Below, piece by piece: positions 3,637 to 23,677 of a DNA stretch of 64,000 nucleotides. Each line of letters starts with the position of its first letter. Positions within the stretch are counted from its first letter, which is position 1. The stretch lies in the IMG/VR virus record IMGVR_UViG_3300043827_000628, positions 1 to 64,000 of that record; one strand, 5' to 3'. Position numbers and translations under genes: made by a program. Origin of the DNA: a virus. The notes below the pieces were generated by a model, which saw only the letters and a program-made list of their open reading frames with translations, was not told the origin of the DNA and did no database searches.

Positions 3637-3638
3637 TA

Positions 3639-4818: not shown

Positions 4819-4839
4819 AAATAAGGAGATACAAAATAA

Positions 4840-6588: not shown

Positions 6589-6590
6589 AT

Positions 6591-7492: not shown

Positions 7493-7499
7493 CGTTAAT

Positions 7500-7509
7500 T
7501 TATTTACAC
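7500..7509 (-). promoter_or_regulatory. GTGTAA-class promoter motif
   Basis: GTGTAAATAA on the minus strand. The first G is 17 bases before the start codon at 7492. It is one half of a divergent pair with 7525, the clearest evidence that the motif is directional. Confidence 0.6.
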
Positions 7510-7524
7510 ATTATTTAGTATTTC

Positions 7525-7534
7525 GTGTAAATAT
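7525..7534 (+). promoter_or_regulatory. GTGTAA-class promoter motif
   Basis: GTGTAAATAT on the plus strand, 24 bases before the phoH start. It is paired with the opposite-strand copy at 7500-7509 in a 56-base intergenic region. Confidence 0.6.
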
Positions 7535-7548
7535 GAATATAAAGTTTA

Positions 7549-8292
7549 ATGTCTAAAAAACACAAGCAAAAGTCACAAGACAAGTCGCCAATAGTTCCTC
7601 AAAGAGATAAAATTGAAGGTTTTTTAGATGTTCGCGAATTACAATGGACTCATAACCAAAAAAAATTCATAGAATTAATACAGAATAAAGAAACAAAAGT
7701 CGTATTCTGTAAGGGACCAGCGGGCACAGCTAAGAGTTTATTATCTGTATATTCTGCTTTAAAAACCCTTAGTGATAAGAAAATAGGCGAGATTTTCTAT
7801 ATACGTAATCCAGTAGAGAGTTCTACCCACAATCTTGGATTTTTAAAAGGCGATCTGCATAGCAAGTTAGACCCATATTTACAACCATTAATGGATAAAT
7901 TACATGAATTATTGCCAAAACAACAAGTTGAGAGATTATTAAGGGAAGAAAGAGTAAAGGGTCTTCCCGTAGGATTCCTTAGAGGATTAAGCATAAATGC
8001 CAGTTATATAATATGTGACGAAGCTCAAAATTTAAGTATACATGATCTACTATTAATAACTACGAGAATGGGTAGATTTAGTAAATTAATACTAATTGGC
8101 GACATTAGACAATCAGATATTAAAAATAGTGGTTTTGAAAATATATATAATTTATTTGATGATAAGAAAAGTAAAGATAAGGGAATATATACATTTAAAT
8201 TTGGTACAGATGATATTATGAGAAATGATATTCTTGGCTATATTATTGAAAAATTTGAAGAACTATCTGCCAAGAACAGTACACGTAAATAA
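7549..8292 (+). CDS. phoH: PhoH-like ATPase
   Basis: A 247-residue P-loop ATPase of the PhoH family, related to superfamily 1 helicase cores and very common in marine and freshwater phages. Walker A is CKGPAGTAKSLL (about residues 53-64). Next come the family segment RNPVESSTHNLGFLKGDL and Walker B with IICDEAQNLS, then LILIGDIRQSD. A role in RNA metabolism or phosphate-stress response has been proposed for the family but is not established. It opens the rightward block leading to terminase and portal, preceded by a GTGTAA motif. Confidence 0.9.
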   Translation: MSKKHKQKSQDKSPIVPQRDKIEGFLDVRELQWTHNQKKFIELIQNKETKVVFCKGPAGTAKSLLSVYSALKTLSDKKIGEIFYIRNPVESSTHNLGFLKGDLHSKLDPYLQPLMDKLHELLPKQQVERLLREERVKGLPVGFLRGLSINASYIICDEAQNLSIHDLLLITTRMGRFSKLILIGDIRQSDIKNSGFENIYNLFDDKKSKDKGIYTFKFGTDDIMRNDILGYIIEKFEELSAKNSTRK

Positions 8293-8338
8293 AGTTTAAA
8301 ATTAGAAAAAAGTATATTTAGAACCTATAATCTTACAT

Positions 8339-8710
8339 ATGCCAAAAATATATTGTAGTAATTGCGGTAATCTAATCCAATATAATGATGTTAAACCCAA
8401 TTTTTGTCAAAAATGTGGAGCAAATATAGCTTCTGGAAAAGTACAAATTAGTGCACAACCGCAAATAAAAATTATTCAAGAGTCTAGACCAAGAGTCAGC
8501 AATTTAAATTGGGATATAGAAATACAAAAACCTAGAGGCGAAAAACTAAAAGATTTAGCTAAAGGGGAAAAGGTTAATATTGATTTTAGGCAGACAGATG
8601 AAAATCTTTCTAAAGAAGAATTTCTAAAACAATTTCAAAAAGAAGCAGGTACTTTACGCAGAGGAAATCAAAATTATCAAGCTTCTGATGAAGAACCAGA
8701 AGATGCGTGA
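8339..8710 (+). CDS. zinc ribbon protein
   Basis: A 123-residue protein with an N-terminal zinc ribbon of four cysteines (C6, C9, C23, C26; CSNCG and CQKCG). The remainder is charged and probably disordered (QPQIKIIQESRPRVSN, then an acidic C-terminus ASDEEPEDA). It overlaps the start of the second sigma-like gene (GTGA), so the two are translationally coupled. It might work with that factor as a transcription co-factor; this is inferred from coupling only. A TATAAT lies about 10 bases before the start. Confidence 0.65.
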   Translation: MPKIYCSNCGNLIQYNDVKPNFCQKCGANIASGKVQISAQPQIKIIQESRPRVSNLNWDIEIQKPRGEKLKDLAKGEKVNIDFRQTDENLSKEEFLKQFQKEAGTLRRGNQNYQASDEEPEDA

Positions 8711-9384
8711 AAAAACCAACATTTGAAAATAAATTCAACGAAATAAATACTGAAATCTACAAGCGAAAGCATAAGTGGAATTTAACATCACTTGCTTGGA
8801 TGGACTTTGATGATGTTGCACAAATTTTAAGAATACATATACATAAAAAATGGAATATGTATGATCCAAAACAGCCACTTGCTCCTTGGATTAATAGAAT
8901 TGTTAGTAATCAAATCAAAAATCTTATTCGTAATAATTACGGAAATTATTCTCGTCCATGTTTAAAGTGTGCAGCTGCAGAAAATGAGGAACATTGTAAT
9001 ATTTATGGCAAACAATGTAATGCTTGTCCACTTTATGCTGCTTGGGAAAAGAATAAGAAGAACGCGCATGATACTAAATTACCACTCGCTTTAGAAAATC
9101 ATACTAAAGAAGTTCATGAGATGCAAGATGGTAAAATTAATATTGAAGAGAGTGCAAATAACATCCATCGTAAAATGCAGCAAGTATTAAAACCAACTGA
9201 ATGGAAAGTATATAAACTTTTATATATTGAACACAAGGATGAAGATCAAGTCGCTGCAAGCATGGGTTACAAAACTAATGAAAAAAATCGTGCTCCTGGA
9301 TATAAGCAAGTACAGAATATTAAAAAAACTATAATGACAAAAGTAAAAAAATATATTTATAGCGATGAAATAGACATTCAATGA
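8707..9384 (+). CDS. sigma-like transcription factor with cysteine-rich insert
   Basis: A 225-residue protein. Residues about 35-80 (DFDDVAQILRIHIHKKWNMYDPKQPLAPWINRIVSNQIKNLIRNNY) resemble sigma region 2, with the P-L-A-P-W-I-x-R-I pattern. A cysteine-rich insert follows (CLKC, then CNIYGKQCNACPLY, six Cys). The C-terminal part (LKPTEWKVYKLLYIEHKDEDQVAASMGYKT, then KQVQNIKKTIMTKVKKYI) resembles region 4 with a helix-turn-helix. It could be a late sigma factor analogous to T4 gp55. The start is GTG. It is located just before the packaging genes. Confidence 0.65.
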   Translation: MKKPTFENKFNEINTEIYKRKHKWNLTSLAWMDFDDVAQILRIHIHKKWNMYDPKQPLAPWINRIVSNQIKNLIRNNYGNYSRPCLKCAAAENEEHCNIYGKQCNACPLYAAWEKNKKNAHDTKLPLALENHTKEVHEMQDGKINIEESANNIHRKMQQVLKPTEWKVYKLLYIEHKDEDQVAASMGYKTNEKNRAPGYKQVQNIKKTIMTKVKKYIYSDEIDIQ

Positions 9385-10460
9385 ATGATGTAATTTTAAC
9401 AGATGATCATAAAAAGAAAATTCTTGATGAATGGAATTCTAGACCTTCTAATCCTCCTTCTCTTGCAGAATTAACTAAATTAATATTTGGAGAAGGATTT
9501 GATGGTCGAAGTCAGCAAGGCAAATTAATTAAAAATTATCTTGCTTCAAGACAGATCATTCCAAAAAAAAGCCATGAATATGAAGCTAAAGGATTAATTG
9601 AGCTTACTGAAGAGCAAAAAGAATATGTAAGTAATAATTGCTCCACAATGACAGCTGTAGAGATGGCTAGAATAATATTTAAAAATAATGATCTTACAAA
9701 TTTAAACCAAGAAACAAGAACTGTGGGCGAATATATTAAAACTTTAGATACTAAAATAGTATATTCTAATCCTAATGAAATACCAGAAGGAAATTATAAA
9801 CCTCCAACAACCCAAAATAGATGTTTAGCTAGAATTAATAAATATGTTCATGAAGGTATTGATGAGGCTAAATTAACAGGAAAACAAAAAAGAGATATAC
9901 AATCTTTAATTGGATATCTTCATACGTATCGCTTTTTACATCAAATTAATACGTATCAGGACGAAAGTGAAAGAGAATTATTTGAGAGTAGTTTTATAAG
10001 ATACACTTTTGATAAAAATGATCTTACTCAAGAGGAAGTAGATCAATATATTGTTCTTGCTACAGAGGTGGTTATATCATCTAATATACAAGAAACAATC
10101 CAAGCTCTTCAGTTACAACTTGATCAAGCTGTAGAATCTGGAGATAGAATTTCAATGTCTCTCGTAGAAGCTATTAGCACTGCTCGAAATGAATATAATC
10201 AATCTGTTACTAGACAACAGAAACTTTTAAGCGATCTTAAAGTAAAACGAAGCGAAAGATTAAGTAGGCAAGTAAAAGAAAATGCATCAATATTAAATCT
10301 TGTTGAACTTTGGAAAGAAGAAGAAAGTAGAAAAGAAATGATCCGATTAGCAGAGATGCGTAAAGAATTGCTTGCTAAAGAAGTAGAAAGACTAAGTACC
10401 ATAGATGAAGTTAAAGCTAGAATTATGGGTATATCTAAGGATGAAGTCTTGAACGGCTGA
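9381..10460 (+). CDS. putative small terminase subunit / coiled-coil protein
   Basis: A 359-residue protein with two repeated N-terminal helix-turn-helix-like segments (about residues 3-55 and 72-130; compare LAELTKLIFGEGFDGRSQQGKLIKNYL with AVEMARIIFKNNDLTNLNQETRTVGEYI). A long C-terminal coiled coil follows (about residues 225-345, with heptads such as LQLQLDQAVE and LLSDLKVKRSERLSRQV). DNA-binding plus oligomerisation domains directly upstream of the nuclease and TerL fit a small terminase, but no family match is recognised. The start overlaps the upstream stop (ATGA). Confidence 0.45.
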   Translation: MNDVILTDDHKKKILDEWNSRPSNPPSLAELTKLIFGEGFDGRSQQGKLIKNYLASRQIIPKKSHEYEAKGLIELTEEQKEYVSNNCSTMTAVEMARIIFKNNDLTNLNQETRTVGEYIKTLDTKIVYSNPNEIPEGNYKPPTTQNRCLARINKYVHEGIDEAKLTGKQKRDIQSLIGYLHTYRFLHQINTYQDESERELFESSFIRYTFDKNDLTQEEVDQYIVLATEVVISSNIQETIQALQLQLDQAVESGDRISMSLVEAISTARNEYNQSVTRQQKLLSDLKVKRSERLSRQVKENASILNLVELWKEEESRKEMIRLAEMRKELLAKEVERLSTIDEVKARIMGISKDEVLNG

Positions 10461-10461
10461 A

Positions 10462-11394
10462 ATGCAAATTGAATGTAAAATTTGTAATGAAATTTTTGCA
10501 GTAGATAAATTTCTTCATCTGCATTTAAAAGCTCATAAAATAACTACTGCAAAATATTATCAAAAGTATTATCCAAGACATGACATTTTGTCTGGAGAGA
10601 TGATTAATTTTAAAAATAAAGATCAATATTTTATAGATGATTTTAATAATAAAAATAATCTAAAAGCTTATGTAAAAAATTTAGAACCAGAAAAGTTAGA
10701 AGAGTTTCTAAAAGGTTTACTGCTTAAAAGAAAAGAAAGAAAGAATCTTATTTATTCTCCAACTCAAGTAGAATTAAGGTCTTTAATTATGCCCTCCATT
10801 GTTACTTTTAATAAATATAAATTAAATTATTATAAAATATGTGAAGATATTGGTTTGAAAAATAAATTTCAAAAATATAATAATGAAGAGTTAAAATTTG
10901 AAGAATCTGACAAATATCAAATAATGATTGATACTAGAGAGCAAAATCCTTTAAGATTTAGATATCAGCAACAAGTAGTTAAATTAGATTTTGGAGACTA
11001 TACATTAAATGATATTGAAAAGTGTTGCTTTACAGCTATAGAAAGAAAGAATTTATCTGATTTCATCGGCACTATGAGTGCAGGTTACGATAGATTTAAT
11101 AATGAGATAGAACGAGCTAAAAACGCTAATTACTACCTTGTAATACTAATTGAAGAGTCTTTAGCAGATTCTCTCTCATTTAATTATTTACCTCATATAT
11201 CCAAAAAGATTAAAGCTACTCCAGAGTTTATATTTCATAGAGTAAGAGAATTAAATCAAAGATATGATAATATACAATTTGTATTTGCTGATGGCAGAAG
11301 AAAGGCTTCTGAATTGCTTGTCAAAATATTGACTGGCAATTGCTTTCATAAAAAATATGATTTGCAATTATTAGTTGATCTGGGTATAATTTAG
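10462..11394 (+). CDS. zinc-finger / ERCC4-type nuclease fusion
   Basis: A 310-residue protein. The N-terminus carries a C2H2-type finger (C5, C8, H21, H25) of the MucR/Ros kind. The C-terminal half is an ERCC4 (XPF-type) nuclease: IMIDTREQNPL (Asp157), LDFGDYTLN (178-180), and the catalytic IERKNLSDFIGTM (ERK at 194-196), followed by a cyclable helical region. Such nucleases cut branched or structured DNA. Its location between the putative small terminase and TerL suggests a role in resolving branched concatemers before packaging, or in recombination; this is inference. Confidence 0.8.
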   Translation: MQIECKICNEIFAVDKFLHLHLKAHKITTAKYYQKYYPRHDILSGEMINFKNKDQYFIDDFNNKNNLKAYVKNLEPEKLEEFLKGLLLKRKERKNLIYSPTQVELRSLIMPSIVTFNKYKLNYYKICEDIGLKNKFQKYNNEELKFEESDKYQIMIDTREQNPLRFRYQQQVVKLDFGDYTLNDIEKCCFTAIERKNLSDFIGTMSAGYDRFNNEIERAKNANYYLVILIEESLADSLSFNYLPHISKKIKATPEFIFHRVRELNQRYDNIQFVFADGRRKASELLVKILTGNCFHKKYDLQLLVDLGII

Positions 11395-11395
11395 T

Positions 11396-13228
11396 ATGTG
11401 GCATTGTCCAGAAAAATATATTAGAAAAGATTTAATAGACATCAATAAACAGTTATTGCAAATCAAAGGGCCCATGCTGGATAAAGAAGCTAAAGTAAGT
11501 TTAGCTAAATTTTTAAGAGCAAATCTAGGATTAACTACGGAGTTAATTAGTGGAATAAAATTATCTCCTTATCAAGAAGTTAATTTAAAAGCTTTTTTTA
11601 ATCGTAATTTTAATATGTGCGTATGGGGCCGAGGATGTTCTAAATCATTTATTGCAAGCGTATATTGTTTCTTACAATGCATATTTGAACCTAATTCAAA
11701 AATATTAATTGCTGGTCCAACATTTCGAACAGCTAGAAATATTTTTACTAACTTAGAAAAAATTGTTAATAGCAAAGAAGCTCAATTACTACAACAAGCT
11801 TTTGGTATTAAAAGCAAAAGAAACGATCTATTTGAATGGGAGATTAATGGCGGTAATATTGTGGCTATTCCTCTCAATGGTGAAAAAGTCCGAGGTTTTC
11901 GAGCTAATGTTCTTGTGCTTGACGAGTTTTTACTTATACCAGAAGATATCATTAAAAATGTATTGATGCCATTCTTAGTAGCGCCACAGAATATGAAAGA
12001 GCGTATTCAAATTAGAGAAATGGAAGATAAACTTATACAGGAAGGTATAATGAAAGAAGAAGACAGAATGGTATTTCCAAATAAATCAAAGATGATAGCA
12101 TTATCTTCTGCTAGTTATACATTCGAGAACCTTTACAAGACATACAAAGAGTGGATTGCAAATATTTATTCTGAAGAAGCGGTTAAAGATGCTACATACT
12201 TTGTAAGCCAAATGGGATACGAAGCTTTGCCAGAAGAAATGGTTGATAAAACAATTATTGAAGAAGCTCAAGCTGGTGGCTTAAGTCATAGTGGATTTCT
12301 TAGAGAATATTGCGCTCAATTTACAGATGGTAGTGATAGTTATTTTTCAGCTAAAAAAATGCATGAATGTACTATACCAGATGGTGATTCTCCTACTTCA
12401 AAAATTTATGGCGATAAAGATAAAAAATATATACTCGCTATTGATCCTAGTTTTAGTAATAGTCCAAGCTCAGATTATTTTGCTATGAGTATTATTGAAT
12501 TGGATGAAGAAAAGAAAGATGGCATACTTGTACATTCTTATGCTGTAGCTGGTGGAGATTTAAAGAATCATATAATATACTTTCATTATCTTATGACAAA
12601 CTTTAATGTAGATATGGTTATCATTGATAATGCAGGTTATCAGTTTATTGATTCTGCAAATGAAAATGAATTATTCCGCAAGTCTGGAATAGAATTAAAA
12701 TTCTTTGAAGTTAACTCTGATACTGAAAGCGTTGAGTATGATCGCATGATTAAAGATGCAAAAAGACAATACAATAAAGAAACAAAAAGAATTTGTTTTA
12801 AACAGATGTTTACTACTGATTTCATACGCAAAGGAAATGAATATCTACAAGCATCTATAGATCATAAAAAGATATGGTTTGCTAGCCGTATATGTGCTAA
12901 TGGAGAAGCTTTTGGAAGAGTCACGGGTTCGAATCTAAATATTGAAACAACTGGTTTTGATAATTTGATAGATTTTGTGGAAAATCAAGATGATATGATA
13001 TATGGTACTAAAAAGGAATGCAATCTTATAGAAGTAAGAAGTACAAGCCGTGGAATCCAATCATTTGATTTGCCTCAACACCTTAAACGAAATACCAGCG
13101 CACACAGAGCTAGAAAAGACAGATATACAGCTCTTATGTTGGGAAATTGGGCAAGTAAAATTTTCTTTGATATGGCTAAAGTACAAGATAAAGTTGAAAA
13201 TGAAACATTTAGACCTATAATGTTATAA
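11396..13228 (+). CDS. terL: terminase large subunit
   Basis: A 610-residue packaging motor. The ATPase domain has Walker A WGRGCSKSFIA (about residues 77-87), Walker B NVLVLDEFLLIP (about 169-180), and a coupling segment KSKMIALSSASYTFENLYKTY. The RNase H-like nuclease domain begins at about residue 345 with LAIDPSFSNSPSSDYFAMSII (catalytic Asp). A second acidic site is at VDMVIIDNAGYQF, and the third is probably in the TGFDNLIDF region. Length and order are typical of T4-like TerL. It is followed by the portal gene with a GTGTAA motif between them. Confidence 0.92.
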   Translation: MWHCPEKYIRKDLIDINKQLLQIKGPMLDKEAKVSLAKFLRANLGLTTELISGIKLSPYQEVNLKAFFNRNFNMCVWGRGCSKSFIASVYCFLQCIFEPNSKILIAGPTFRTARNIFTNLEKIVNSKEAQLLQQAFGIKSKRNDLFEWEINGGNIVAIPLNGEKVRGFRANVLVLDEFLLIPEDIIKNVLMPFLVAPQNMKERIQIREMEDKLIQEGIMKEEDRMVFPNKSKMIALSSASYTFENLYKTYKEWIANIYSEEAVKDATYFVSQMGYEALPEEMVDKTIIEEAQAGGLSHSGFLREYCAQFTDGSDSYFSAKKMHECTIPDGDSPTSKIYGDKDKKYILAIDPSFSNSPSSDYFAMSIIELDEEKKDGILVHSYAVAGGDLKNHIIYFHYLMTNFNVDMVIIDNAGYQFIDSANENELFRKSGIELKFFEVNSDTESVEYDRMIKDAKRQYNKETKRICFKQMFTTDFIRKGNEYLQASIDHKKIWFASRICANGEAFGRVTGSNLNIETTGFDNLIDFVENQDDMIYGTKKECNLIEVRSTSRGIQSFDLPQHLKRNTSAHRARKDRYTALMLGNWASKIFFDMAKVQDKVENETFRPIML

Positions 13229-13232
13229 ATAG

Positions 13233-13242
13233 GTGTAATTTT
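13233..13242 (+). promoter_or_regulatory. GTGTAA-class promoter motif
   Basis: GTGTAATTTT in the 29-base gap between TerL and portal, with its first G 25 bases before the portal ATG. It suggests separate late transcription of the portal gene. Confidence 0.5.
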
Positions 13243-13257
13243 TAAAAATAACTAAAA

Positions 13258-15138
13258 ATGGCTAAAAAAGACGAAAATAACCCAAAACTAACTAACTTTA
13301 CTACTAGCACAGAGCCTCTTATGGCTGGATCTGGATTTAAAGAAATAAAAGCTAGTGATAAAGCTCGTAGAAACAGAGCTGGTACTATAGAGAGAACAGA
13401 TAAATACTCTAATATATCGAATGGATTAATACCATTTAATAGAGCAGCTAACAATATTTATAGTGCTTCTAATATGGACATAAGAGACGCTGTTATTTTA
13501 TGTCAAAAATGCTATTATAATTTTGCTATATTTAGAAACACAGTTGATTTAATGACAGAGTTTAGCAGTAGCAAAATATATTTTAAAGGCGGTAGCCAAA
13601 AGAGTCGTGATTTTTTTGAAGCATTATTTGATAAAATTAATCTATGGAGTTTCCAAGATAAATTTTTTCGCGAATACTATCGCTCTGGAAATGTATTTAT
13701 ATATCGCTTTGATACTAACATTAAAGAAGATGATTTAATTAAAATTACTCAAACCTTTGGAGTTAGTAAAGCTGCTTCTGTTATTCTTCCTGCTAGATAT
13801 ATAATTATTAATCCTGCTGATATTCAAATTGGCGGTAATATAAGTTTTGTTACAAATAGATTTTATAAAGTATTAAGTGATTATGAATTAGAAAGACTTC
13901 GTCATCCAAGAACAGATGAAGATAAAGAAGTCTATGATTCTCTTCCTCAAGAAGTAAAAGACAACATTCAAAAGAAAACTAGTACAGCTACTATGCCTCT
14001 TGATACTCATAGACTTGTAGCTGTATTCTACAAGAAACAAGATTATGAACCATTTGCTGTTCCAATGGGATATCCTGTGCTTGAAGATATTAATGCTAAA
14101 GCTGAGATGCGTAAAATGGATATGGCAGTTACAAGAACAACTCAACAAGCAATTCTTCTTGTTACTATGGGAACAGATCCAGAAAAAGGCGGCGTTAATC
14201 AAAAAAATCTTGAAGCTATGCAATCTCTGTTTCAAAATGAAAGCGTTGGCAGAGTTCTTATAGCAGACTATACAACAAAAGCAGAGTTTGTTATTCCTGC
14301 TATTGCAGATATTCTTGATCCTAAAAAATATGAAGTAATTGATAAAGATATTCAAATTGGATTAAATAATATTTTAATTGGAAGTGAAAAATTTGCAAAT
14401 ACTAGCATTAAAGTTCAAGTATTTATTGAAAGATTAAAACAAGCTAGAGAAGCATTTATTAATGAGTTTCTTTTTCCAGAGATTGTAAGAATAAGTAAAG
14501 GTTTAGGATTTAAAAATTATCCCACTCCATACTTTGAAGACATTGATCTTAAAGATGATATTCAATATGCTAGAATATATAATAGATTAGTTGAGCTTGG
14601 AGTATTGACGCCAGAAGAAGGTCTTAAAGCTATTGAAACTGGTAGATTACCAGATCCAGAATCTTCTTTTGAGAGCCAAGTTAAATACAAAGAATTTCGT
14701 GATCAAGGATATTACAATCCAGTAATTGGCGGCAATCAGTCTCAATCTGGAAGACCTAGCGGTACAAATGGCATATCTCAAACATCTAAAAATATTTCTC
14801 CAGTTGGTACTGGAAAACAATCCAAAGCTGAATTTAGTTCTAAAAAAGTCACAGATAATTTCGCATTAGCTTCTTTGTTAGAAGACCATGTGACAGATTT
14901 AGTTAAGCAAAAATTTAAAATTAAGAGACTTAATAAGCAACAAAAATCCATCATAGACGATATTACAAAAATGATTATTGTTAATGAAAATTCAGATAAA
15001 TGGATTGAAAGTGCAAGTAGCTATGTAGAAAATCCAGTAGATAAGAATGAAGATAATATTAAATCTACAATTGAAATAGCTTCAAATCATCAAGTAGACA
15101 GCTATATAGCTGGTATATTAAGAAATAGTAAAGTTTAA
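13258..15138 (+). CDS. portal protein
   Basis: A 626-residue protein directly downstream of TerL, the usual place for portal. It has the family pattern of a charged N-terminus, then NMDIRDAVILCQKCYYNFAIFRNTVDLMTEFSSSKIYFKGG (wing/clip entry), a central stem region (KMDMAVTRTTQQAILLVTMG), EKFANTSIKVQVFIERLKQAREAFINEFLFPEIVRI near residue 375-410, and DDIQYARIYNRLVELGVLTPEEGLKAIETGRLPD, typical of phage portals. The C-terminal 120 residues are polar and variable. It would form the dodecameric DNA channel at one capsid vertex. Its stop shares TTAA with the convergent gene. Confidence 0.85.
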   Translation: MAKKDENNPKLTNFTTSTEPLMAGSGFKEIKASDKARRNRAGTIERTDKYSNISNGLIPFNRAANNIYSASNMDIRDAVILCQKCYYNFAIFRNTVDLMTEFSSSKIYFKGGSQKSRDFFEALFDKINLWSFQDKFFREYYRSGNVFIYRFDTNIKEDDLIKITQTFGVSKAASVILPARYIIINPADIQIGGNISFVTNRFYKVLSDYELERLRHPRTDEDKEVYDSLPQEVKDNIQKKTSTATMPLDTHRLVAVFYKKQDYEPFAVPMGYPVLEDINAKAEMRKMDMAVTRTTQQAILLVTMGTDPEKGGVNQKNLEAMQSLFQNESVGRVLIADYTTKAEFVIPAIADILDPKKYEVIDKDIQIGLNNILIGSEKFANTSIKVQVFIERLKQAREAFINEFLFPEIVRISKGLGFKNYPTPYFEDIDLKDDIQYARIYNRLVELGVLTPEEGLKAIETGRLPDPESSFESQVKYKEFRDQGYYNPVIGGNQSQSGRPSGTNGISQTSKNISPVGTGKQSKAEFSSKKVTDNFALASLLEDHVTDLVKQKFKIKRLNKQQKSIIDDITKMIIVNENSDKWIESASSYVENPVDKNEDNIKSTIEIASNHQVDSYIAGILRNSKV

Positions 15139-15590
15139 GATTCTGGAGTAGGTTCTACAATAGATTGTGGCGCTGGTTCAATAACCGGTATAACTGGCTT
15201 AGGATTATTTGTTTTAACTTCTAAACAGGCTGCTACATAAGAATTCATCTGAGAACTATCGCCATTTTGCATTTTTACAAAAGCATCTGCAAATTCACCA
15301 AGAGGAGGATAATTCTCTCTTCTTTTATTCAAAACATAATTTAATTTTCCTTCATAACTAATTTCATCTTTTTTATAAATTTTATAGCATTCTTTTTCTG
15401 TTAATTCATAATGACTAAAAGATACTGATTCTTTAGATGGGTCGTTAAATAATTGATTATCATAAAATTCTCTTAATACATAACCACCATCAAAATTTTT
15501 TGATATTAATCCCCAATTTTCAATTTCTTCTCTATAATGAGGTTCTCCTATGCTACCATTTGAAGATATATAAACATATAGTTTTTGCAT
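15135..15590 (-). CDS. fibre-associated / tail fibre chaperone-like protein
   Basis: A 151-residue protein downstream of the fibre genes. The C-terminal half (RRENYPPLGEFADAFVKMQNGDSSQMNSYVAACLEVKTNNPKP) follows the Y-P-P/S-x-x-x-x-x-D-A...V-K-x-x-x-P-K-P pattern common in short proteins encoded next to phage tail fibres, some of which are assembly chaperones. The last 20 residues are proline/glutamate-rich. The assignment rests on this pattern and on location. Its stop overlaps the portal stop in the palindrome TTAA. Confidence 0.5.
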   Translation of the reverse strand: MQKLYVYISSNGSIGEPHYREEIENWGLISKNFDGGYVLREFYDNQLFNDPSKESVSFSHYELTEKECYKIYKKDEISYEGKLNYVLNKRRENYPPLGEFADAFVKMQNGDSSQMNSYVAACLEVKTNNPKPVIPVIEPAPQSIVEPTPES

Positions 15591-15593
15591 ATA

Positions 15594-15604
15594 ATATATT
15601 ACAC
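15594..15604 (-). promoter_or_regulatory. GTGTAA-class promoter motif
   Basis: GTGTAATATAT on the minus strand, first G 14 bases before the ATG at 15590. No Shine-Dalgarno sequence lies between motif and start. Confidence 0.6.
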
Positions 15605-15608
15605 TCCT

Positions 15609-17933
15609 TTAGCGTGCATTTGCATATTTGAAGGGTGTTTCGGCGAAGGCGGCGAAGATGTAGGTACCGCCGGTTGCGTTGCCGTCATTTCCTGCTAGTC
15701 TTAACTTAAATCCATTAGAAAGAAAATCAATAGTAGCGGTTGATCCACCAAAGTTTTCAGTATTAGGGATTCTCGAGACTAAATAATTCTTCCCAACATT
15801 GAAGCTATCCCTTGCGCTGTCATAAATAAGCCATCCAAGCGTGTCTGCGGCATCTGTGCGCTTGTGCATAACCCACCTCGGCCTAAACCCGCAATACACA
15901 AACGGTCCGTCAGCCAACCCGTTGCCAGCATAGCTTCCAAACTTGCTGAAGCCTTCGACTTCGGCGAAGAGGTAAGCGATCATATTATTTCCATTGCCAT
16001 TTGAAGACAAATTTGTTCCAACGCTAAATACCGAACTTGTCGGCGCAGTGCTATTCCATACGTTTGGATAGCTCGCCTGTGAGTCTGGAACATCCAAAAA
16101 CACTGAATTTTGAGGAGACGAAAGAGATGAATGGTAAACGCACCAATTAGTTGCCCCAGAAAAATTTCTGTTTTTTACGATTATCATCTTTGGCGCAACC
16201 CCAAGATTATGAGCAATCGTCCTGCTCGTCGCATTACCCGTATAGTTGACAATATCCATCCCCGCTATCGGAGCCTCGTCCCAAGCCCAAGCGACAAAGG
16301 TTGATCCGTTATTATTGTTTTCTGATTCTGTTCCTAGCGTAAACCCAGACGAGTCAAGAGTTACTGTTGTGGATGCCTCTGCGCCAGTTGTGTCGGATCG
16401 GAGCCTCTTCCCGCTTCTTTGCGTGTCAAATATATTGTGGCTTTGGGCTAGGTTTCTTCCTTTTGTCCAAAGAAGGTCAGGGGAAAAGCCAAGCCCCGAA
16501 ATTGTTTGCGTGGCTCCCGTCCCCGTGTACGTCACCACATCCATGTAACTGCTGGGCTTCTTGATAACTGGCGTGGGCAGGTTGGTCGTGCAAAGGGCCT
16601 TGAAGCCGGAGGGGGCGGGGTAGGCGAAGGGGCGTTGGCCGAAGTTGAGGACTGTTGCTCCAGCCGATTGGAAGACACCAACAACAGGAAAGACGGTATT
16701 GCTCAAAAGATTTGAAAAAGCTACGCCCTGACTAGCGCCATTTTTGTAAAATGTTATCTCCCCAGCATCCATGTTTAGCGCAATGCCTATAACATCATTT
16801 GTTGTCCATGGCTCACCATAGGAACTAGAAGACCCACCACCATTTCTCTTTGTACCATCGTCCGACCTGTATCTCCAAGCTGTTGATGCTATTCCGGGTT
16901 CGGTTGATATATCATATAAATTTGTTGCAACTCCAACAATACCGGCCGTCCCACCGCCATAAGTAAGCTCCCAATACCATTTTCCGCTTGAAACTGCCAT
17001 TGTCCCAAGGACTCCATTCCAAACATTTGCTTGAGTTAAGTTTAAATTTCCATTTGCAAGTGTTATTACGCTTCCCTTGGCCAGCGGATTCAAGGTGCAA
17101 TAATTATTAGTAGGACTATCACTCTTTTGATTTAATGAACTCATATTATTAAGAGTCCAATTATTATTATTCCCAGAACTATCTGTTCCGAGTGCAGCCG
17201 AATTATTAAATTTTAAATTAAATCCTGTTGTTCCGTAAGTACCGAGATATCTTTTAGGAACCCAAGTATTTGTGCGGTTACTAGCGGTAGCAAAAGCTGT
17301 TGGAGGAAGTGCTTGACCATCTATAAAATGAGTTTCTGCAACATATCCATCCAAATAATAATCAAAACCATGAAAGTAAAAACCTATAATATGAGGTATT
17401 GCAAGATTAAAAGCACTTTCCCAAGAGTAATTTAAAGAAAAAGTTGGATCAGTAATAAATGTACCTCGGACTCCATTAACATAAAATCTAAATCTTTCAG
17501 ATTGAGCTAAATTTGAACTGTCCCAATTTACTACAAGATGATACCAAGCGCTAGGATCACGAAAAACTTGATTAGAATAAAAAACATTATACCTAAAATG
17601 AAATACTAAACGATCTGTATTGCCAGTAGAGGTACCTGCAATAAAGAAAATATTATAATTTCCAGGAGAGTTACCAACTCCAGTATTGTAACTGTGCCAT
17701 AACATATCTCCATAATTTGTTCTTGAAATGTTTCCTCTCTTAAACCACATGCTAAGAGTTGCAGTAGTTGAACTTCCAGCAGAAGTAAAAGTTCTACTTA
17801 AATATTGATTTGATCCATTAAAAGAGCAACTATTATTTATAGGTTCAGTAATTGTAGGAGCAATACCAACTTCTCCTGGTGATCTTATTATTTTTGGCTC
17901 ATTTGGCGGTACTATATATTTAAAATCACTCAT
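15609..17933 (-). CDS. tail fibre / receptor-binding protein, paralogue 1
   Basis: A 774-residue fibre protein. Residues about 35-230 form a LamG/concanavalin-like jellyroll (ATLSMWFKRGNISR, AWYHLVVNWDSSN, VAETHFIDGQAL). Residues about 300-440 are SPRY-like (SSGKWYWELTYGGG, NDVIGIALNMDAGEITFYKNG). From about 460 comes a C-terminal module beginning PTPVIKKPSSYMDVVTYTGTG, shared with the next two genes. It ends with FKYANAR, and similar ends (FKYSRAR, LKYALAR) close the paralogues. It probably binds host surface glycans. The C-terminal DNA is GC-richer than the N-terminal DNA. Confidence 0.7.
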   Translation of the reverse strand: MSDFKYIVPPNEPKIIRSPGEVGIAPTITEPINNSCSFNGSNQYLSRTFTSAGSSTTATLSMWFKRGNISRTNYGDMLWHSYNTGVGNSPGNYNIFFIAGTSTGNTDRLVFHFRYNVFYSNQVFRDPSAWYHLVVNWDSSNLAQSERFRFYVNGVRGTFITDPTFSLNYSWESAFNLAIPHIIGFYFHGFDYYLDGYVAETHFIDGQALPPTAFATASNRTNTWVPKRYLGTYGTTGFNLKFNNSAALGTDSSGNNNNWTLNNMSSLNQKSDSPTNNYCTLNPLAKGSVITLANGNLNLTQANVWNGVLGTMAVSSGKWYWELTYGGGTAGIVGVATNLYDISTEPGIASTAWRYRSDDGTKRNGGGSSSSYGEPWTTNDVIGIALNMDAGEITFYKNGASQGVAFSNLLSNTVFPVVGVFQSAGATVLNFGQRPFAYPAPSGFKALCTTNLPTPVIKKPSSYMDVVTYTGTGATQTISGLGFSPDLLWTKGRNLAQSHNIFDTQRSGKRLRSDTTGAEASTTVTLDSSGFTLGTESENNNNGSTFVAWAWDEAPIAGMDIVNYTGNATSRTIAHNLGVAPKMIIVKNRNFSGATNWCVYHSSLSSPQNSVFLDVPDSQASYPNVWNSTAPTSSVFSVGTNLSSNGNGNNMIAYLFAEVEGFSKFGSYAGNGLADGPFVYCGFRPRWVMHKRTDAADTLGWLIYDSARDSFNVGKNYLVSRIPNTENFGGSTATIDFLSNGFKLRLAGNDGNATGGTYIFAAFAETPFKYANAR
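16412..16595. repeat. 184-base fibre cassette, copy 1
   Basis: This block, inside the first fibre gene, is nearly identical to 18781-18964 (I see one mismatch) and 21102-21285 (about three mismatches). It encodes the PTPVIKKPSSYMDVVTYTG to IFDTQRSGKR region. Identity extends to synonymous positions. Confidence 0.85.
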
Positions 17934-17936
17934 AAA

Positions 17937-17946
17937 ATATTTACAC
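17937..17946 (-). promoter_or_regulatory. GTGTAA-class promoter motif
   Basis: GTGTAAATAT on the minus strand, first G 13 bases before the ATG of fibre paralogue 1. Confidence 0.6.
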
Positions 17947-17947
17947 T

Positions 17948-20302
17948 TTAGCGAGCAAGAGCATATTTTAAAGGAGTCTCGGCGAAGGCGGCGAAGATGT
18001 GCTTTCCGCCAGCAGAATTCCCATTAAATGAATTTGTTGACCTAAACTTAAATCCATTTGAATTAAAGTCTATTAGCGCATTTCCAGTAAATTCAGCGAT
18101 AGATCCGTTTGGTTGTAATTGAGCAGAAGCAACATTAAAAGAATCTCTCGATGTGTCGTAAATAATCCAGTTTTCCATCGCATCAACTCTTTTCCCAATA
18201 ATAAGTTTTGGCCTAAACCCGCAATACACAAACGGTCCGTCAGCCGACCCGTTGCCGGTGTAACTGCCAAAAAAAGAGTACCCGGCTACTGGGGCGAATA
18301 CATAAGCAACAAAGTTATTGCCGACGACAACTGGACCATCTCCCACCAAAGAAAATGTTGTCGAGGTGGACGCTGCCCACATGGTTGCATACGTTTGTTC
18401 TCCAAAAACGTTGAACTGTAAATACGCAATTGTTTCATTACTCAATCCTTGGTGCCAAATTTGCCAGTTTTGAGAGTTTGATAGGTTTTTAACAATGTAC
18501 ATTGCAGGCTTAACGCCCAACCCATGACCGTAGGAATTTGTGCCACCTGCACACGTCGCGGTAACAATCGAGAACCCCGCACTGATGTTAGCCCTCACCT
18601 GACTAGTGATGGAGCCTTGTGTGTTGGATACGGTGGAGCTGCCGGCATCCCAGCACCAGGCGACAAAGGTTGATCCGTTATTATTGCTTTCTGATTCTGC
18701 TCCTAGCGTAAAGCCATTTGCCCCAAGCGTAACGGTTGTCGAGGCTTCGGGAAACATTTGGTCAGATCGGAGCCTCTTACCGCTTCTTTGCGTGTCAAAT
18801 ATATTGTGGCTTTGGGCGAGGTTTCTTCCTTTTGTCCAAAGAAGGTCAGGGGAAAAGCCAAGCCCCGAAATTGTTTGCGTGGCTCCCGTCCCCGTGTACG
18901 TCACCACATCCATGTAACTGCTGGGCTTCTTGATAACTGGCGTGGGCAGGTTGGTCGTGCAAAGAGCTCTAAATCCAGACGGTGGAGTATATGTAAAAGA
19001 TCTTTGGCCAGCATTAAACTGAACTTTTTTGCTATTTGCTGATGCTTCTGCACCAAACATCCAATTACCAGAATAAGTTGTGTAAGATGATCCGCTAACA
19101 GTAAATTGTAAAGAATTACCTTTATAAAAACTAACAGATCCATTATCTGCATCCACAGCAACGCCAATAACATCATTGAGTCCATATGTTGCTCCGCCAG
19201 AAGATCCTATTGTGCCATTAACATTTCTATTTGCGTTATCTATATATGCAATAGTTTGTATGCCACTAGTAGTAGTTATCATGCTAATACTACCGCCAAT
19301 AAAATTAGTATCTACTCCAATAACTCCTACAGCAAAAGTTCCTCCTACTCCAACAGAATCTAATGGAGTAAATTCAGCATACCATTTTCCAGTTCTTGGT
19401 ATAGCAAAAGTTGTGCCTTGAGCACGATTATTTGTAGAAACTAAAACTATATTATTATTTGATAATGTAATTGCTGAATTTTTACTTAATAGATTATAAG
19501 TAGGATAATTATTGGTTGGACTATCAACAAATATATTACTAGTATCCATTCCTCCGTTAATTGAAAAATTATTTCCATTACCAGAAAAATCTCTTCCGAT
19601 TGTGGAAGAACTAGTATTATCGCCAAAATTAATATAGTATCCATTTATACCATATAAACCAGTATATTTTTTTGGTTTCCAAACAAAATCTCTTTGATTA
19701 TCAAAATATCCAAAACTATGTGCATCTAAAGACTGATTATCTATAAAATTAATTTCAGTCATATAGAATCGACTTGTATGACTCAAATACTGCACATAAG
19801 AAGCTCTATTAATACCATAAGATGTCTCTGCTGTATATGATTCTGTGGAAAATGATCTTATTCTTTCACCATTAACATATAATCTTTGTCTTTCTGAAGA
19901 TATAGAATTATTTGAATCCCAAACTGCAACTATATGATACCAAGACGATGGGTCTCGAAATACTCGGGTAGTGATTAATCTTCCATAATATGCTCCTGCA
20001 AAATTATAAAGATCCAACGCATCATCTATTGTAAATTGTAACACTGTGCTAGTTGATGCTCCATCCCAACCAGTAATAATTTGTTGCGCAGATTGATTTA
20101 TTGTTTTTTTAATCCAGCAACTAAAAGTCCATGATTTTAGATTTCCACTAACGCTTGGTGTTCTTGTAAAATATTGGTTATTATTAAAAATACAACTTCT
20201 TCCTATCTGATAGTTATTATATAATCCTTTTGAAATATTAGCTTGACTAGTTTTTTCAACATAACTCTTGGTATTTGCATCGATATAAAAGAAATCGCTC
20301 AT
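17948..20302 (-). CDS. tail fibre / receptor-binding protein, paralogue 2
   Basis: A 784-residue paralogue of the flanking fibre genes. The N-terminal LamG-like jellyroll includes SWTFSCWIKKTINQSAQQIIT and SSWYHIVAVWDSNNS. The middle SPRY-like domain includes TGKWYAEFTPLDSVGVG and NDVIGVAVDADNGSVSFYKGN. The C-terminal module begins LPTPVIKKPSSYMDVVTYTG and carries GWFRPK-like FVYCGFRPKLIIGKR. It has an extra stretch after SFVAWCWDAG (SSTVSNTQGSITSQVRANISAGF) that the others lack. Its ATG overlaps the upstream TAA by one base (TAATG), giving termination-reinitiation. A role in receptor binding is inferred from domains. Confidence 0.7.
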   Translation of the reverse strand: MSDFFYIDANTKSYVEKTSQANISKGLYNNYQIGRSCIFNNNQYFTRTPSVSGNLKSWTFSCWIKKTINQSAQQIITGWDGASTSTVLQFTIDDALDLYNFAGAYYGRLITTRVFRDPSSWYHIVAVWDSNNSISSERQRLYVNGERIRSFSTESYTAETSYGINRASYVQYLSHTSRFYMTEINFIDNQSLDAHSFGYFDNQRDFVWKPKKYTGLYGINGYYINFGDNTSSSTIGRDFSGNGNNFSINGGMDTSNIFVDSPTNNYPTYNLLSKNSAITLSNNNIVLVSTNNRAQGTTFAIPRTGKWYAEFTPLDSVGVGGTFAVGVIGVDTNFIGGSISMITTTSGIQTIAYIDNANRNVNGTIGSSGGATYGLNDVIGVAVDADNGSVSFYKGNSLQFTVSGSSYTTYSGNWMFGAEASANSKKVQFNAGQRSFTYTPPSGFRALCTTNLPTPVIKKPSSYMDVVTYTGTGATQTISGLGFSPDLLWTKGRNLAQSHNIFDTQRSGKRLRSDQMFPEASTTVTLGANGFTLGAESESNNNGSTFVAWCWDAGSSTVSNTQGSITSQVRANISAGFSIVTATCAGGTNSYGHGLGVKPAMYIVKNLSNSQNWQIWHQGLSNETIAYLQFNVFGEQTYATMWAASTSTTFSLVGDGPVVVGNNFVAYVFAPVAGYSFFGSYTGNGSADGPFVYCGFRPKLIIGKRVDAMENWIIYDTSRDSFNVASAQLQPNGSIAEFTGNALIDFNSNGFKFRSTNSFNGNSAGGKHIFAAFAETPLKYALAR
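18781..18964. repeat. 184-base fibre cassette, copy 2
   Basis: Second copy of the shared block, inside fibre paralogue 2. Upstream of it (18660-18780) similarity continues with paralogue 3, including the segment encoding ANGFTLGAESE. Confidence 0.85.
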
Positions 20303-22638
20303 TATCTTGCCCTCGAATATTTAAATGAATGTTCTGCAAAGGCGGCGAAGATGTATGTGGCATTTGTATTGAGCGAGGCTCCTAAATTCCGCAGTTTGAA
20401 CCCGTTAGACAAAAGATCCAAGCCAAGATAGGTTGACTCGGAGCCTGGGGTGCTTGCGTTAAGATATGGGCCCATAACGTTATAACCTTGTCTGGTGGAG
20501 TCGAATATGTTCCAGTGAGTATCAAAAGAACTTACGGAGCTACTTTTAACCATCAACCACCTCGGCCTAAACCCGCAATACACAAACGGTCCGTCAGCCG
20601 ACCCGTTGCCAGTATAGCTTCCAAACTTGCTGAAGCCTTCGACTTCGGCGAAGAAGTAAGCTATAAAACTTTCTCCACTAGCAACTACATCATTATGTAA
20701 TCCTATATCAATTGCGCTTGCTCCTCTTCCTATCCAATTGTTGTAAAATGATACAGTTCTTGATGCGGTTCCGTTTAAAAGAAGATAATAATATTCAGAA
20801 TCTGTAGGAGATGATCCTACTCCTTGATGATAAACATACCAACCTCTTGCGCCAGTTAAACTTTTGATAATAACCATAGCTGGAGCTTTTCCCAAATTAT
20901 GGGAAATATTATTTGAATAACCATTACCAGTATAAGAAACAATATCCATCCCCGCTATCGGAGCCTCGTCCCAAGCCCAAGCGACAAAGGTTGATCCGTT
21001 ATTATTGTTTTCTGATTCTGTTCCTAGCGTAAAGCCATTTGCCCCAAGCGTAACGGTTGTCGAGGCTTCGGGCAACGTTTGGTCAGATCGGAGCCTCTTA
21101 CCGCTTCTTTGCGTGTCAAATATATTGTGGTTTTGAGCGAGGTTTCTTCCTTTTGTCCAAAGAAGGTCAGGGGAAAAGCCAAGCCCCGAAATTGTTTGCG
21201 TGGCTCCCGTCCCCGTGTACGTCACCACATCCATGTAACTGCTGGGCTTCTTGATAACTGGCGTGGGCAGGTTGGTCGTGCAGAGGGCCTTGAAGCCGGA
21301 GGGGGCGGGGTAGACAAATGGGCGTTGGCCGAAGTTGACGGTTAGACCAATGTTGGCGGAAATTGTATCATCGCCTACCACAGGAAAATATGTCCCGGCG
21401 GCAATACTCGTGTAAGCATTGCCTTGAGATACATTGTTTTTGTAAAAAGTTAACGTACCGTTATCTGCATCAAAGGCGATCCCAACTATATCGCCATTAG
21501 CAAGTATTGAACCATATGAAGACAAGGTGTTATTGTTTCTTTTGTTGCTGCCACCTGAATACGAAGCCCATACCCAGGAATACGCGTCAACACCCCCGTA
21601 ACTTGCAAGATTTGCTTGATTTGTGGCTATACCGGTTGCACAGTGATTGGATGTGGTAGTAACTTCCCAATACCATTTTCCGCTGGACATTCCAATTGTC
21701 CCAAGAATCAACCCATATCCGCTTCCGCTGCTGGTGACCTGCAGGTTTCCATTTGCCGGAGCTTGTATGTCTCCACCCTTTGCTAACGGATTGAGCGTGC
21801 AATAATTATTAGTAGGACTATCACTTACAACAAAATTATTTATCCCATCAGAACTATAACCATTTAATTTCCAGTTATTACCGTTGCCACTTTTATCTCT
21901 TATTAATTCACTAAAACTAGAATCATTTAGTGGCAAATAAAATCCATTTGTTCCATATGTTCCAGAGTACCTTTTTGGTTGCCAAATGCCAATACTATCA
22001 GTATAACCAAAATTTTCTGGACCAAGGGCTTGGCCTTCAATCCAATGCATTTCTGCAATATATCCATCGTAATACAGGTTTCTTGGCACGGATGAGGCAC
22101 CAATACTGTGGTCATACATTTGATTGTAATGAGTCTGTGTATTTTGATTTGGATATGTTGAGACAGAAAAAGATGTAACTTTAACTCCATTTACATACAT
22201 CTTAAGCCGCTCTGTGCTTGTGGCATTTGCCGTGTCTATTACATATACTAAGTGATACCAAGCTGATGGATCTCTTAAAACCTGATTTGACTGAAGAGTA
22301 TAATTGCTTGTAAGGCCAGCAGAGTTCATAAACAAACAATCGTCCTGAATCCCCATTTGGCTTGTTGATAAATAGATGTGGTTTCCAGCACAAAATATTC
22401 TTGGATAATATGCCGATCCTAAAACACCCCTCTTGATCCAGACAGAAAGTGTTGCTGTTTGAGCGTTTGAGCTTGTCGCTGGCGTTCTATTCAAAAATTG
22501 AGAACTGCCACTATTAAAAATTAAACTCTTATACTGTTTTACTGATGGTCCAAGAACACTATTAACGCCAATTGCTCCAAGACTTGAGCCACTTTTAACA
22601 CTTCCTGATATATCAAATAATTTAAATGGTTTAAACAT
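20302..22638 (-). CDS. tail fibre / receptor-binding protein, paralogue 3
   Basis: A 778-residue fibre protein with the same order as its two neighbours: LamG-like jellyroll (TATLSVWIKRGVLGSAYYP, AWYHLVYVIDTANATSTERLKMYVNGVKV), SPRY-like domain (SSGKWYWEVTTTSNHCATGIAT, NGDIVGIAFDADNGTLTFYKNN) and the shared C-terminal module. Its C-terminal end keeps the EVEGFSKFGSYTGNGSADGPFVYCGFRPRW segment also in paralogue 1. The start at 22638 overlaps the upstream stop by eight bases. Three consecutive paralogues suggest expansion of host range or assembly into a hetero-oligomeric fibre. Confidence 0.7.
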   Translation of the reverse strand: MFKPFKLFDISGSVKSGSSLGAIGVNSVLGPSVKQYKSLIFNSGSSQFLNRTPATSSNAQTATLSVWIKRGVLGSAYYPRIFCAGNHIYLSTSQMGIQDDCLFMNSAGLTSNYTLQSNQVLRDPSAWYHLVYVIDTANATSTERLKMYVNGVKVTSFSVSTYPNQNTQTHYNQMYDHSIGASSVPRNLYYDGYIAEMHWIEGQALGPENFGYTDSIGIWQPKRYSGTYGTNGFYLPLNDSSFSELIRDKSGNGNNWKLNGYSSDGINNFVVSDSPTNNYCTLNPLAKGGDIQAPANGNLQVTSSGSGYGLILGTIGMSSGKWYWEVTTTSNHCATGIATNQANLASYGGVDAYSWVWASYSGGSNKRNNNTLSSYGSILANGDIVGIAFDADNGTLTFYKNNVSQGNAYTSIAAGTYFPVVGDDTISANIGLTVNFGQRPFVYPAPSGFKALCTTNLPTPVIKKPSSYMDVVTYTGTGATQTISGLGFSPDLLWTKGRNLAQNHNIFDTQRSGKRLRSDQTLPEASTTVTLGANGFTLGTESENNNNGSTFVAWAWDEAPIAGMDIVSYTGNGYSNNISHNLGKAPAMVIIKSLTGARGWYVYHQGVGSSPTDSEYYYLLLNGTASRTVSFYNNWIGRGASAIDIGLHNDVVASGESFIAYFFAEVEGFSKFGSYTGNGSADGPFVYCGFRPRWLMVKSSSVSSFDTHWNIFDSTRQGYNVMGPYLNASTPGSESTYLGLDLLSNGFKLRNLGASLNTNATYIFAAFAEHSFKYSRAR
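21102..21285. repeat. 184-base fibre cassette, copy 3
   Basis: Third copy of the shared block. The adjacent segment 20942-21033 is essentially identical to 16252-16345 in paralogue 1, while 21033-21101 matches paralogue 2 better, so copy 3 looks mosaic. Confidence 0.85.
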
Positions 22639-23677
22639 TTATGCCAGTCTCTCCGAATACCATTAGATTAACAGCGCCAGATGTAGTTGTAGAGAACTGA
22701 AGACTATCATTAGCACTTTCTAATCTATTCAAAATCATATTATATTCTTCTCCAAGAATTAATGTGTCTGCACCAGATAGAGTCAATTCAAGAATCTGAT
22801 TTCCACTGTTCGCGGTTCCGATAGAGCCAGCAACATTACGAACATCATGAACTTTTACCGTTTCAACACTTGATGAAGTGTTATGAAATAGCATATTATA
22901 TATATTCATCTTTGATGTATTGCTAACATAACCAGAAGGAATACTTGATATTCCAGTTATACTAACAATATCTCTCATACGAATACTTGATGCTGTTCCT
23001 GTTTCACCTATCATCTTTATATTTAAAGATCCATAAATACCTGCAGCATCAATAATTGCTTGTATTGTATCGTTTGTTCTAGAAAGAACAATACCATTTG
23101 GAACCAGTAATCTTAAAGCAGATTTTCCTGGTAAATCAACGTCTAAAATTTTGTATTGCACTTCAGATACATTAACTTGACTGCCTGTTGATGGTACATA
23201 AAACATTTGAGTATTAACAAGAGTATCATTGCTATTCATTATATCAATTCTACGCAATAAAGAAATTGTGTTACTCGGATTTGTATATAATCTATGACCA
23301 CCAGTAGTAATTCCAGTAATTTGATTAAAAATAAGATTATTAACAGTAAAGTTGCCAGCTGTAGAAGTTTCACCAACTATGCCTGTAAGAAGTGACCCAT
23401 CACCAGAAAATTTAGTAGCTTTAAGAACTCCAACCACTTGCATCTTAACACCAGCATCAGGAGTTGGAATACCAACAGTAATAAATCCTGTAACATCTAA
23501 ATCGCCAGTAATATCAACAGAATTTAATTTAGTACTACCAGTGATGTCAATATTATTAAAGTAACTGGTACCAGTGGTGTTAATATTATTAAAGTAACTG
23601 GTACCAGTGGTGTAAATATTATTAAAGTAACTGGTATCAGAGGTGCGGATAGATTCAATCTGTAGCGTTCTTGGCAT
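22631..23677 (-). CDS. tail fibre-like protein with N-terminal TSYFNNI repeats
   Basis: A 348-residue beta-rich protein. Residues about 13-46 are three near-identical 11-residue repeats (TSYFNNI plus xTTG or xITG), followed by VDITGDLDVTGFITVG and a KATKFSGDGSLLTGI motif, a pattern typical of triple-beta-helical phage fibres. The middle contains LYTNPSNTISLLRRIDIMN. The C-terminus ends VNLMVFGETGINV. It may be the shaft or connector for the three downstream fibre paralogues, with which it overlaps. A GTGTAATATT motif precedes it. Confidence 0.65.
   Translation of the reverse strand: MPRTLQIESIRTSDTSYFNNIYTTGTSYFNNINTTGTSYFNNIDITGSTKLNSVDITGDLDVTGFITVGIPTPDAGVKMQVVGVLKATKFSGDGSLLTGIVGETSTAGNFTVNNLIFNQITGITTGGHRLYTNPSNTISLLRRIDIMNSNDTLVNTQMFYVPSTGSQVNVSEVQYKILDVDLPGKSALRLLVPNGIVLSRTNDTIQAIIDAAGIYGSLNIKMIGETGTASSIRMRDIVSITGISSIPSGYVSNTSKMNIYNMLFHNTSSSVETVKVHDVRNVAGSIGTANSGNQILELTLSGADTLILGEEYNMILNRLESANDSLQFSTTTSGAVNLMVFGETGINV
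23550..23648. repeat. three 33-base tandem repeats inside the fibre gene
   Basis: The 33-base unit (containing TATTATTAAAGTAACTGGTA) occurs three times in a row with a few substitutions and encodes the 11-residue TSYFNNI repeat. It is in frame, so copy number could change fibre length without a frameshift. Confidence 0.85.

Follow-up and report, generated by a model that had tools for sequence, protein, structure and literature searches.

How did three adjacent fibre genes of one phage, otherwise far diverged from one another, come to share an internal block that is almost identical down to its silent sites? The question arises in a window of 64,000 bases, which comprises positions 1-64000 of a 91,349-base IMG/VR virus record and has a GC content of 30.5%. 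The virus is an uncultured, AT-rich tailed phage of bacteria. The original prediction had read the shared block as a mark of recent gene conversion or of modular acquisition from a GC-richer source, and thus as a possible engine of host-range change.

Overall architecture of the three tandem fibre genes

The program-made list of open reading frames contains three consecutive ORFs of 774, 784 and 778 residues in tandem on the minus strand (Table 1). In a codon alignment, the DNA identity is 57% between genes 1 and 2, 60% between genes 1 and 3, and 55% between genes 2 and 3. Each protein is composed of three parts. The C-terminal part belongs to the family DUF7483 (PF24299) in all three genes, with Pfam scores of 283-339 bits against a cut-off of 27 and full-length coverage of the profile (positions 1-330, 1-330 and 1-329). 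It is preceded by a SPRY domain (PF00622), which scores above the curated cut-off in genes 1 and 3 and under it in gene 2 (19 bits vs 26.3). The AlphaFold2 model of gene 1, an all-beta structure with a pLDDT of 89 and a pTM of 0.89, matches solved SPRY domains with a target-normalised TM-score of up to 0.90. The N-termini of the three proteins were judged to be LamG-like, on the basis of phage homologues annotated as LamG or concanavalin and of the high-confidence all-beta model. The PHROGs families also divide the protein, with phrog_27411 covering the front and phrog_24898, annotated as "tail fiber protein", covering the DUF7483 part. This homology to fibres, together with the position in a fibre locus, makes the three genes probable tail-fibre/receptor-binding (or adhesin) genes.

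Profile comparison revealed that DUF7483 consists of three tandem repeats of ~100 residues (E 1e-18, 1e-15 and 3e-11), and the model of the isolated domain has a pLDDT of 92.8. The similarity to PDB entries is weak and was not counted as evidence: the best match is the Plasmodium APC-beta domain (PDB 7pln), with an E of 2e-4 and a query TM of 0.27, and PCSK9 chains ranked below it. A literature search on DUF7483 found no paper. The domain, until now of unknown function, gains a structural description as three beta repeats, together with a modular context. In some fibres DUF7483 is a repeating unit, since two to four copies or part-copies lie within one long protein in Synechococcus phage S-B68 (contig L249, 19944-24734), phage C72C1 (L251, 249-4673) and Roseobacter phage CRP-1 (L253, 13981-15906).

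Table 1. Coordinates of the putative fibre genes, shared segments and surrounding island in the window
Feature	Positions	Strand	Remarks
Putative host-recognition island	15139..23653	.	portal ends at 15138 and nrdA starts at 23816; relatives' homology stops at ~15132-15138 and resumes at 23654
Small last island gene	15135..15590	-	151 aa; 79% relative only in L175
Fibre gene 1	15609..17933	-	774 aa; LamG-like aa ~35-240, SPRY aa 318-432, DUF7483 aa 459-767 (Pfam, AlphaFold2, PHROGs)
Cassette copy 1	16412..16595	-	first half of DUF7483 repeat 1
LamG/SPRY linker (SPTNNY...NPLAKG)	17074..17123	-	at the GC3 change-point of gene 1; counterpart 21776-21825 in gene 3 (88% identical, repeat family D5)
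Fibre gene 2	17948..20302	-	784 aa; architecture as gene 1; LamG-like and SPRY parts AT-rich, DUF7483 GC-rich
3' end of gene 2	17963..18232	-	closest to foreign contigs L010/L017 (78-90% DNA identity); own paralogues 39-67%
Cassette copy 2	18781..18964	-	5' edge 18964, close to the GC3 change-point of gene 2 at 18962
Fibre gene 3	20302..22638	-	778 aa; architecture as gene 1; DUF7483 a mosaic of tracts resembling gene 1 and tracts resembling gene 2
Gene-1-like tract in gene 3, DGPFVYCGFRPR block	20557..20664	-	start of DUF7483 repeat 3; also 92-93% in L016/L020
Gene-1-like tract in gene 3	20939..21033	-	95 nt exact
Gene-2-like tract in gene 3	21034..21100	-	informative sites almost all shared by genes 2 and 3
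Cassette copy 3	21102..21285	-	homogenised cassette in gene 3
Gene-1-like tract in gene 3, upstream of cassette	21286..21345	-	informative sites mostly shared by genes 1 and 3
First gene of island operon	22631..23677	-	348 aa, begins MPRTLQIES; start region common to relatives' long first fibre genes

A homogenised cassette and mosaic tracts within DUF7483

The shared block is a cassette of 184 bp that occupies the 5' edge of DUF7483, in the first half of repeat 1. It is 98-99% identical among the three copies and absent elsewhere in the 91,349-base record. The original prediction had placed the copies at 16412, 18781 and 21102, near-identical at synonymous sites as well, which proved right within a few bases; its range of one to three differences is slightly too narrow, as genes 1 and 2 differ at one base, genes 2 and 3 at three, and genes 1 and 3 at four. 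Within the cassette the three pairs share exact stretches of up to 146, 143 and 146 nt; 2000 site shuffles gave no run longer than 26-29 nt, and runs of 45-46 identical synonymous codons, as seen here, did not occur once in 10,000 shuffles. Where the genes encode the same residue, 1-3 of ~50 codons differ in the cassette core, against roughly 20-80% in most other windows along the genes. Synonymous divergence along the aligned genes is not uniform, and silent-site identity is limited to the cassette and its adjoining tracts. In windows of 90 nt the paralogues are 96-100% identical over the cassette, whereas 72-78% is the highest value among 104 homologues in other contigs; conservation of the protein therefore does not explain the cassette. 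The features by which gene conversion is recognised, namely tracts of silent-site identity, sharp tract ends and otherwise diverged paralogues, are all present.

The 5' edge of the cassette is a module boundary, because Pelagibacter phage HTVC200P carries the LamG+SPRY part and DUF7483 as separate adjacent genes and because the two parts fall into separate PHROG families. The lectin gene and the DUF7483 gene of HTVC200P present the same modules in the same order as in the window, where, in contrast, they are fused; a homogenised block is lacking in HTVC200P.

Gene 3 has a patchwork structure downstream of and around its cassette. In the 5' to 3' direction, a gene-1-like tract is followed by a stretch common to all three genes (21282-21101), a gene-2-like tract, a second gene-1-like tract, a mixed segment and a third gene-1-like tract (Table 1). 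The mosaic predicted for copy 3, with paralogue 1 matched at 20942-21033 and paralogue 2 at 21033-21101, is borne out by the 95 exact nucleotides shared with copy 1 and by the sites at 21034-21100 that genes 2 and 3 have in common; exact matches to copy 2 extend over 21022-21072 and 21078-21130. A second shared block, DGPFVYCGFRPR, had been noticed near 15881, 18211 and 20564, and exact runs confirm it, at 15880-15915 and 18210-18245 for genes 1 and 2, and at 18210-18256 and 20564-20610 for genes 2 and 3. This repeat-3 block is weaker evidence of conversion, as the unrelated contigs L016 and L020 are also 87-93% identical to it. Exchange with other phages has probably occurred as well, since the 3' end of gene 2 is nearest to the contigs L010 and L017 and not to its own paralogues.

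GC steps at the domain linkers

The GC content at third codon positions (GC3) is 0.18 in the other long ORFs of the genome, compared to 0.42-0.48 in the three DUF7483 modules, and the 25 highest-GC windows of 300 nt in the 64 kb all lie within the three fibre genes. The GC-richer character ascribed to the cassette is supported, with part of the peak being family-wide, as detailed below. The AT-richness ascribed to the N-terminal domains holds for the LamG-like part in all three genes (0.14-0.25), whereas the SPRY part is AT-rich in gene 2 only (0.40, 0.11 and 0.45 in genes 1, 2 and 3). Fibre genes of the relatives have a GC3 of 0.07-0.22.

Single change-points of GC3 were located at codon 278 of gene 1 (interval 274-352), codon 447 of gene 2 (440-448) and codon 279 of gene 3 (272-299), and all three are stronger than any of 300 shuffles. 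The change-points of genes 1 and 3 lie at the LamG/SPRY linker, which belongs to a conserved repeat family (D5). That of gene 2, at 18962, coincides with the cassette edge at 18964 in the SPRY/DUF7483 linker. Their location at domain linkers supports the view that GC-richer modules were imported via crossovers in these linkers, in keeping with the predicted modular acquisition from a GC-richer source.

GC-richness intrinsic to DUF7483 was considered as the full cause and ruled out, for the DUF7483 modules of most other AT-rich contigs have a GC3 of only 0.14-0.25. Part of the peak is nonetheless a family-wide habit and not a donor signal, because conserved windows of 25 codons show raised amino-acid-corrected GC3 in all 104 homologues (mean rho 0.42-0.49). 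These are the DUF7483 homologues in contigs L005-L168, and the silent-site GC of their conserved segments is raised without a rise in between-phage codon identity. Biased gene conversion, translation selection or another cause may underlie the raised GC of the conserved segments.

The cassette among multi-copy genomes

The homogenised cassette is lineage-specific, and unusual rather than general, because no such block exists in 15 further genomes or loci where DUF7483 is present in several copies; a general property of multi-copy genomes is thereby ruled out. In 10 contigs with two DUF7483 genes, the longest identical runs measure 9-35 nt, compared to 143-146 nt here. No homogenised block was found in five multi-copy isolate phages (S-B68, GR7B, C72C1, CRP-1 and HTVC200P), of which S-B68, C72C1 and CRP-1 hold their copies within one protein and are therefore not like-for-like controls. 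Among isolate phages no near-DNA match was found, and the search for relatives carrying the same three genes, including one by the portal protein, retrieved no close one. A search of genome contigs for a bacterial source gave three weak matches only.

A variable island between portal and nrdA

The close relatives found by the portal-protein search have portal proteins that are 79-93% identical. Homology to the closest of them ends at the portal stop codon and picks up again at position 23654, among the opening codons (MPRTLQ) of the first fibre gene. The segment that separates portal from nrdA, 8.7 kb in the window, varies in every relative that holds both flanks (n=13), from 0.12 to 9.7 kb. 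It measures 121 bp in L184, 124 bp in L182, 0.55 kb in L172, 7.8 kb in L187 and 9.7 kb in L174, whereas in eight relatives it spans 2.5-3.7 kb and holds mostly glycine-rich and long fibre-like genes. Only L175, a contig that ends early, shares the 151-aa gene of the island, along with the end of a DUF7483 gene that is 54% identical. As these comparisons show, the array fills a hypervariable swap site, probably one for host recognition, where the attachment genes of the relatives are either wholly different or missing. The predicted engine of host-range change is plausible in view of the genomic position and domain content of the three genes.

Several further features of this site were observed. 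In L182 (11875-11999) and L184 (4730-4851) the site is practically empty (~120 bp) where others hold fibre genes. In L174, most of the island is taken up by a single ORF of ~2762 aa (12273-20564) that begins with a LamG-like part and carries DUF7483-like repeats close to its end. The first island gene of the window contains, near its N-terminus, a 33-bp tandem repeat (23536-23645, 3.3 copies) that encodes the 11-residue unit TSYFNNIxTTG. The contig L221 (1-19151, compared with 3258-15138 of the window) is 100% identical to the window over positions 3258-13754 (10.5 kb). Inside an 89-bp stretch of the portal gene that is shared exactly, it changes over to the type of L170, and beginning with the long fibre gene it matches L171 (98-100%); it is either a natural island-swap recombinant or a chimeric assembly.

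Proposed history of the array and alternative explanations

We propose, as the reading that we hold to be fairly probable, that GC-rich modules were imported at conserved linkers and that patchy gene conversion between the tandem copies followed. AT-rich fibre genes would have retained their own LamG-like fronts and acquired from other phages a C-terminal module rich in GC. The crossovers would have fallen in the conserved inter-domain linkers, between SPRY and DUF7483 in gene 2 and between LamG and SPRY in the other two genes. Homologous recombination among the tandem copies would later have overwritten short patches of roughly 50-180 nt, leaving one near-identical cassette in all three genes and the alternating tracts in gene 3. 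Uniformity would thus be maintained in one portion of the three-repeat beta domain, the first half of repeat 1, and the outer regions would remain diverged. Genes for a RecA-family protein (40266-41408) and a PD-(D/E)XK nuclease (45145-46137) are present in the record, and the phage's own RecA-like protein and nuclease might carry out the conversion. Conversion and acquisition had been offered as alternatives. Each finds support, the former in silent-site identity and tract structure, but the either/or does not stand, as the evidence fits both, in sequence.

Module capture alone would dispense with repeated conversion: one GC-rich DUF7483 segment may have been copied into the three genes by ordinary crossovers, or a recent triplication may have had its outer parts replaced later from other phages. 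The GC change-point of gene 2 on the cassette edge and the foreign affinity of its 3' end fit this explanation, yet the tracts that alternate between 1-like and 2-like within 400 bp of gene 3, in addition to a separate patch shared by genes 1 and 3, call for several small events, and the divergence of repeat 2, and of repeat 3 for the most part, is similar to that of the fronts. We regard this explanation as rather unlikely. Repeated import of one donor block would produce much the same pattern, which counts against import followed by conversion. The repeats raise a different concern, that of the assembly. An exact repeat of ~146 nt, near the length of short reads, could have let the assembler mis-pair fibre fronts and backs from the same or co-occurring phages, and the switch of L221 to the L170 type in the 89-bp portal stretch is either real recombination or just such a chimera. 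Nevertheless, the copies are distinct (1-4 differences), the three reading frames are intact and follow one architecture, and mis-pairing swaps flanks and would not in itself make near-identical cassettes with private differences. Moreover, a second record (L004/L169) is 100% identical over a stretch of 12.3 kb that runs through gene 1 and ends inside gene 2; it is the only further record to hold these two genes, one whole and the other in part, and may share the same reads. An artefact is accordingly improbable.

Two further explanations carry very little weight. Were the block constrained at the DNA level, as a regulatory, RNA or recombination signal, it would be conserved and not converted, and the raised GC3 of conserved protein blocks in all 104 homologues would be in line with this. 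Between-phage codon identity, however, is not raised in the conserved blocks (observed/expected 1.07-1.32, unrelated to conservation), which rules out a family-wide conserved anchor at the DNA level, and neither the low identity of the best foreign cassette nor the 15 other multi-copy genomes or loci without the block is as such a constraint would have it; we consider it highly improbable. It is just as hard to credit that the genes are shuffled by a dedicated device, either a diversity-generating retroelement or an invertible fibre switch. A tandem array of fibre paralogues that have a block in common does resemble fibre-switching loci in outline, but the shared blocks are direct repeats, and the inverted repeats of the region are imperfect. 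In the 91-kb record, which is possibly incomplete, there is no match to the reverse transcriptase (RVT_1) looked for as the sign of a diversity-generating retroelement, nor to the serine recombinase (PF00239) or tyrosine integrase (PF00589) looked for as the sign of an invertible switch.

Comparison with known systems

In T-even phages, the exchange of adhesin specificity through recombination at conserved motifs is a classical finding, attributed to Tetart 1998 in PMC10408124. By that account, the T-even adhesins and the present genes both have conserved stretches that serve as crossover points between variable parts; unlike the T-even case so described, the exchange in the window would (also) take place among three tandem paralogues of one genome and leave an internal DUF7483 cassette. 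Conserved DNA motifs around receptor-binding domains have been described (PMC10408124), as have the conserved N-terminal domains of tailspike paralogues in the Ackermannviridae (PMC11414711). Both systems are similar to the array in having several receptor-binding proteins per phage and shared segments proposed for homologous recombination. However, their shared part is the N-terminal attachment region, whereas the cassette lies inside the genes, where the C-terminal domain begins, and it is the N-termini that differ. A hypervariable host-recognition cluster is also described for pelagimyophages and cyanomyophages (PMC7029224). Like the present site, it is a hypervariable island in which fibre genes can be accompanied by glycosyltransferases (as in L187, judged from sequence), but it lies between VrlC and gp14 and averages 34-45 kb, compared to 0.12-9.7 kb between portal and nrdA in a different phage lineage.

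Mosaic fibres that arise between phages are already well known. The patchy homogenisation of an internal block among the tandem fibre paralogues of one genome, with GC steps at the linkers, is much less described, and a literature search on fibre paralogues and gene conversion met gene conversion only as isolated mentions. Such homogenisation could offer a phage the means to reshuffle its host recognition with no other phage involved. A more speculative extension, which we find doubtful, is that the tandem paralogues form a built-in recombination reservoir. The cassette, kept uniform by ongoing conversion, might then act as a shared crossover anchor that re-pairs LamG-like fronts and DUF7483 backs within the genome and takes in new ones, amid an exchange of fibre islands at the population level.

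Outside the island, the window encodes a minus-strand protein of 1808 aa (54892-60318) with repeats that, by eye, resemble YadA-type beta-roll motifs; it has no PHROG match. By eye as well, we take the genes at 1-1110, 32207-32557 and 38016-39065 to be probable members of the IMP dehydrogenase/GMP reductase family, the small heat-shock proteins and the GDP-mannose dehydratase-like proteins, respectively.
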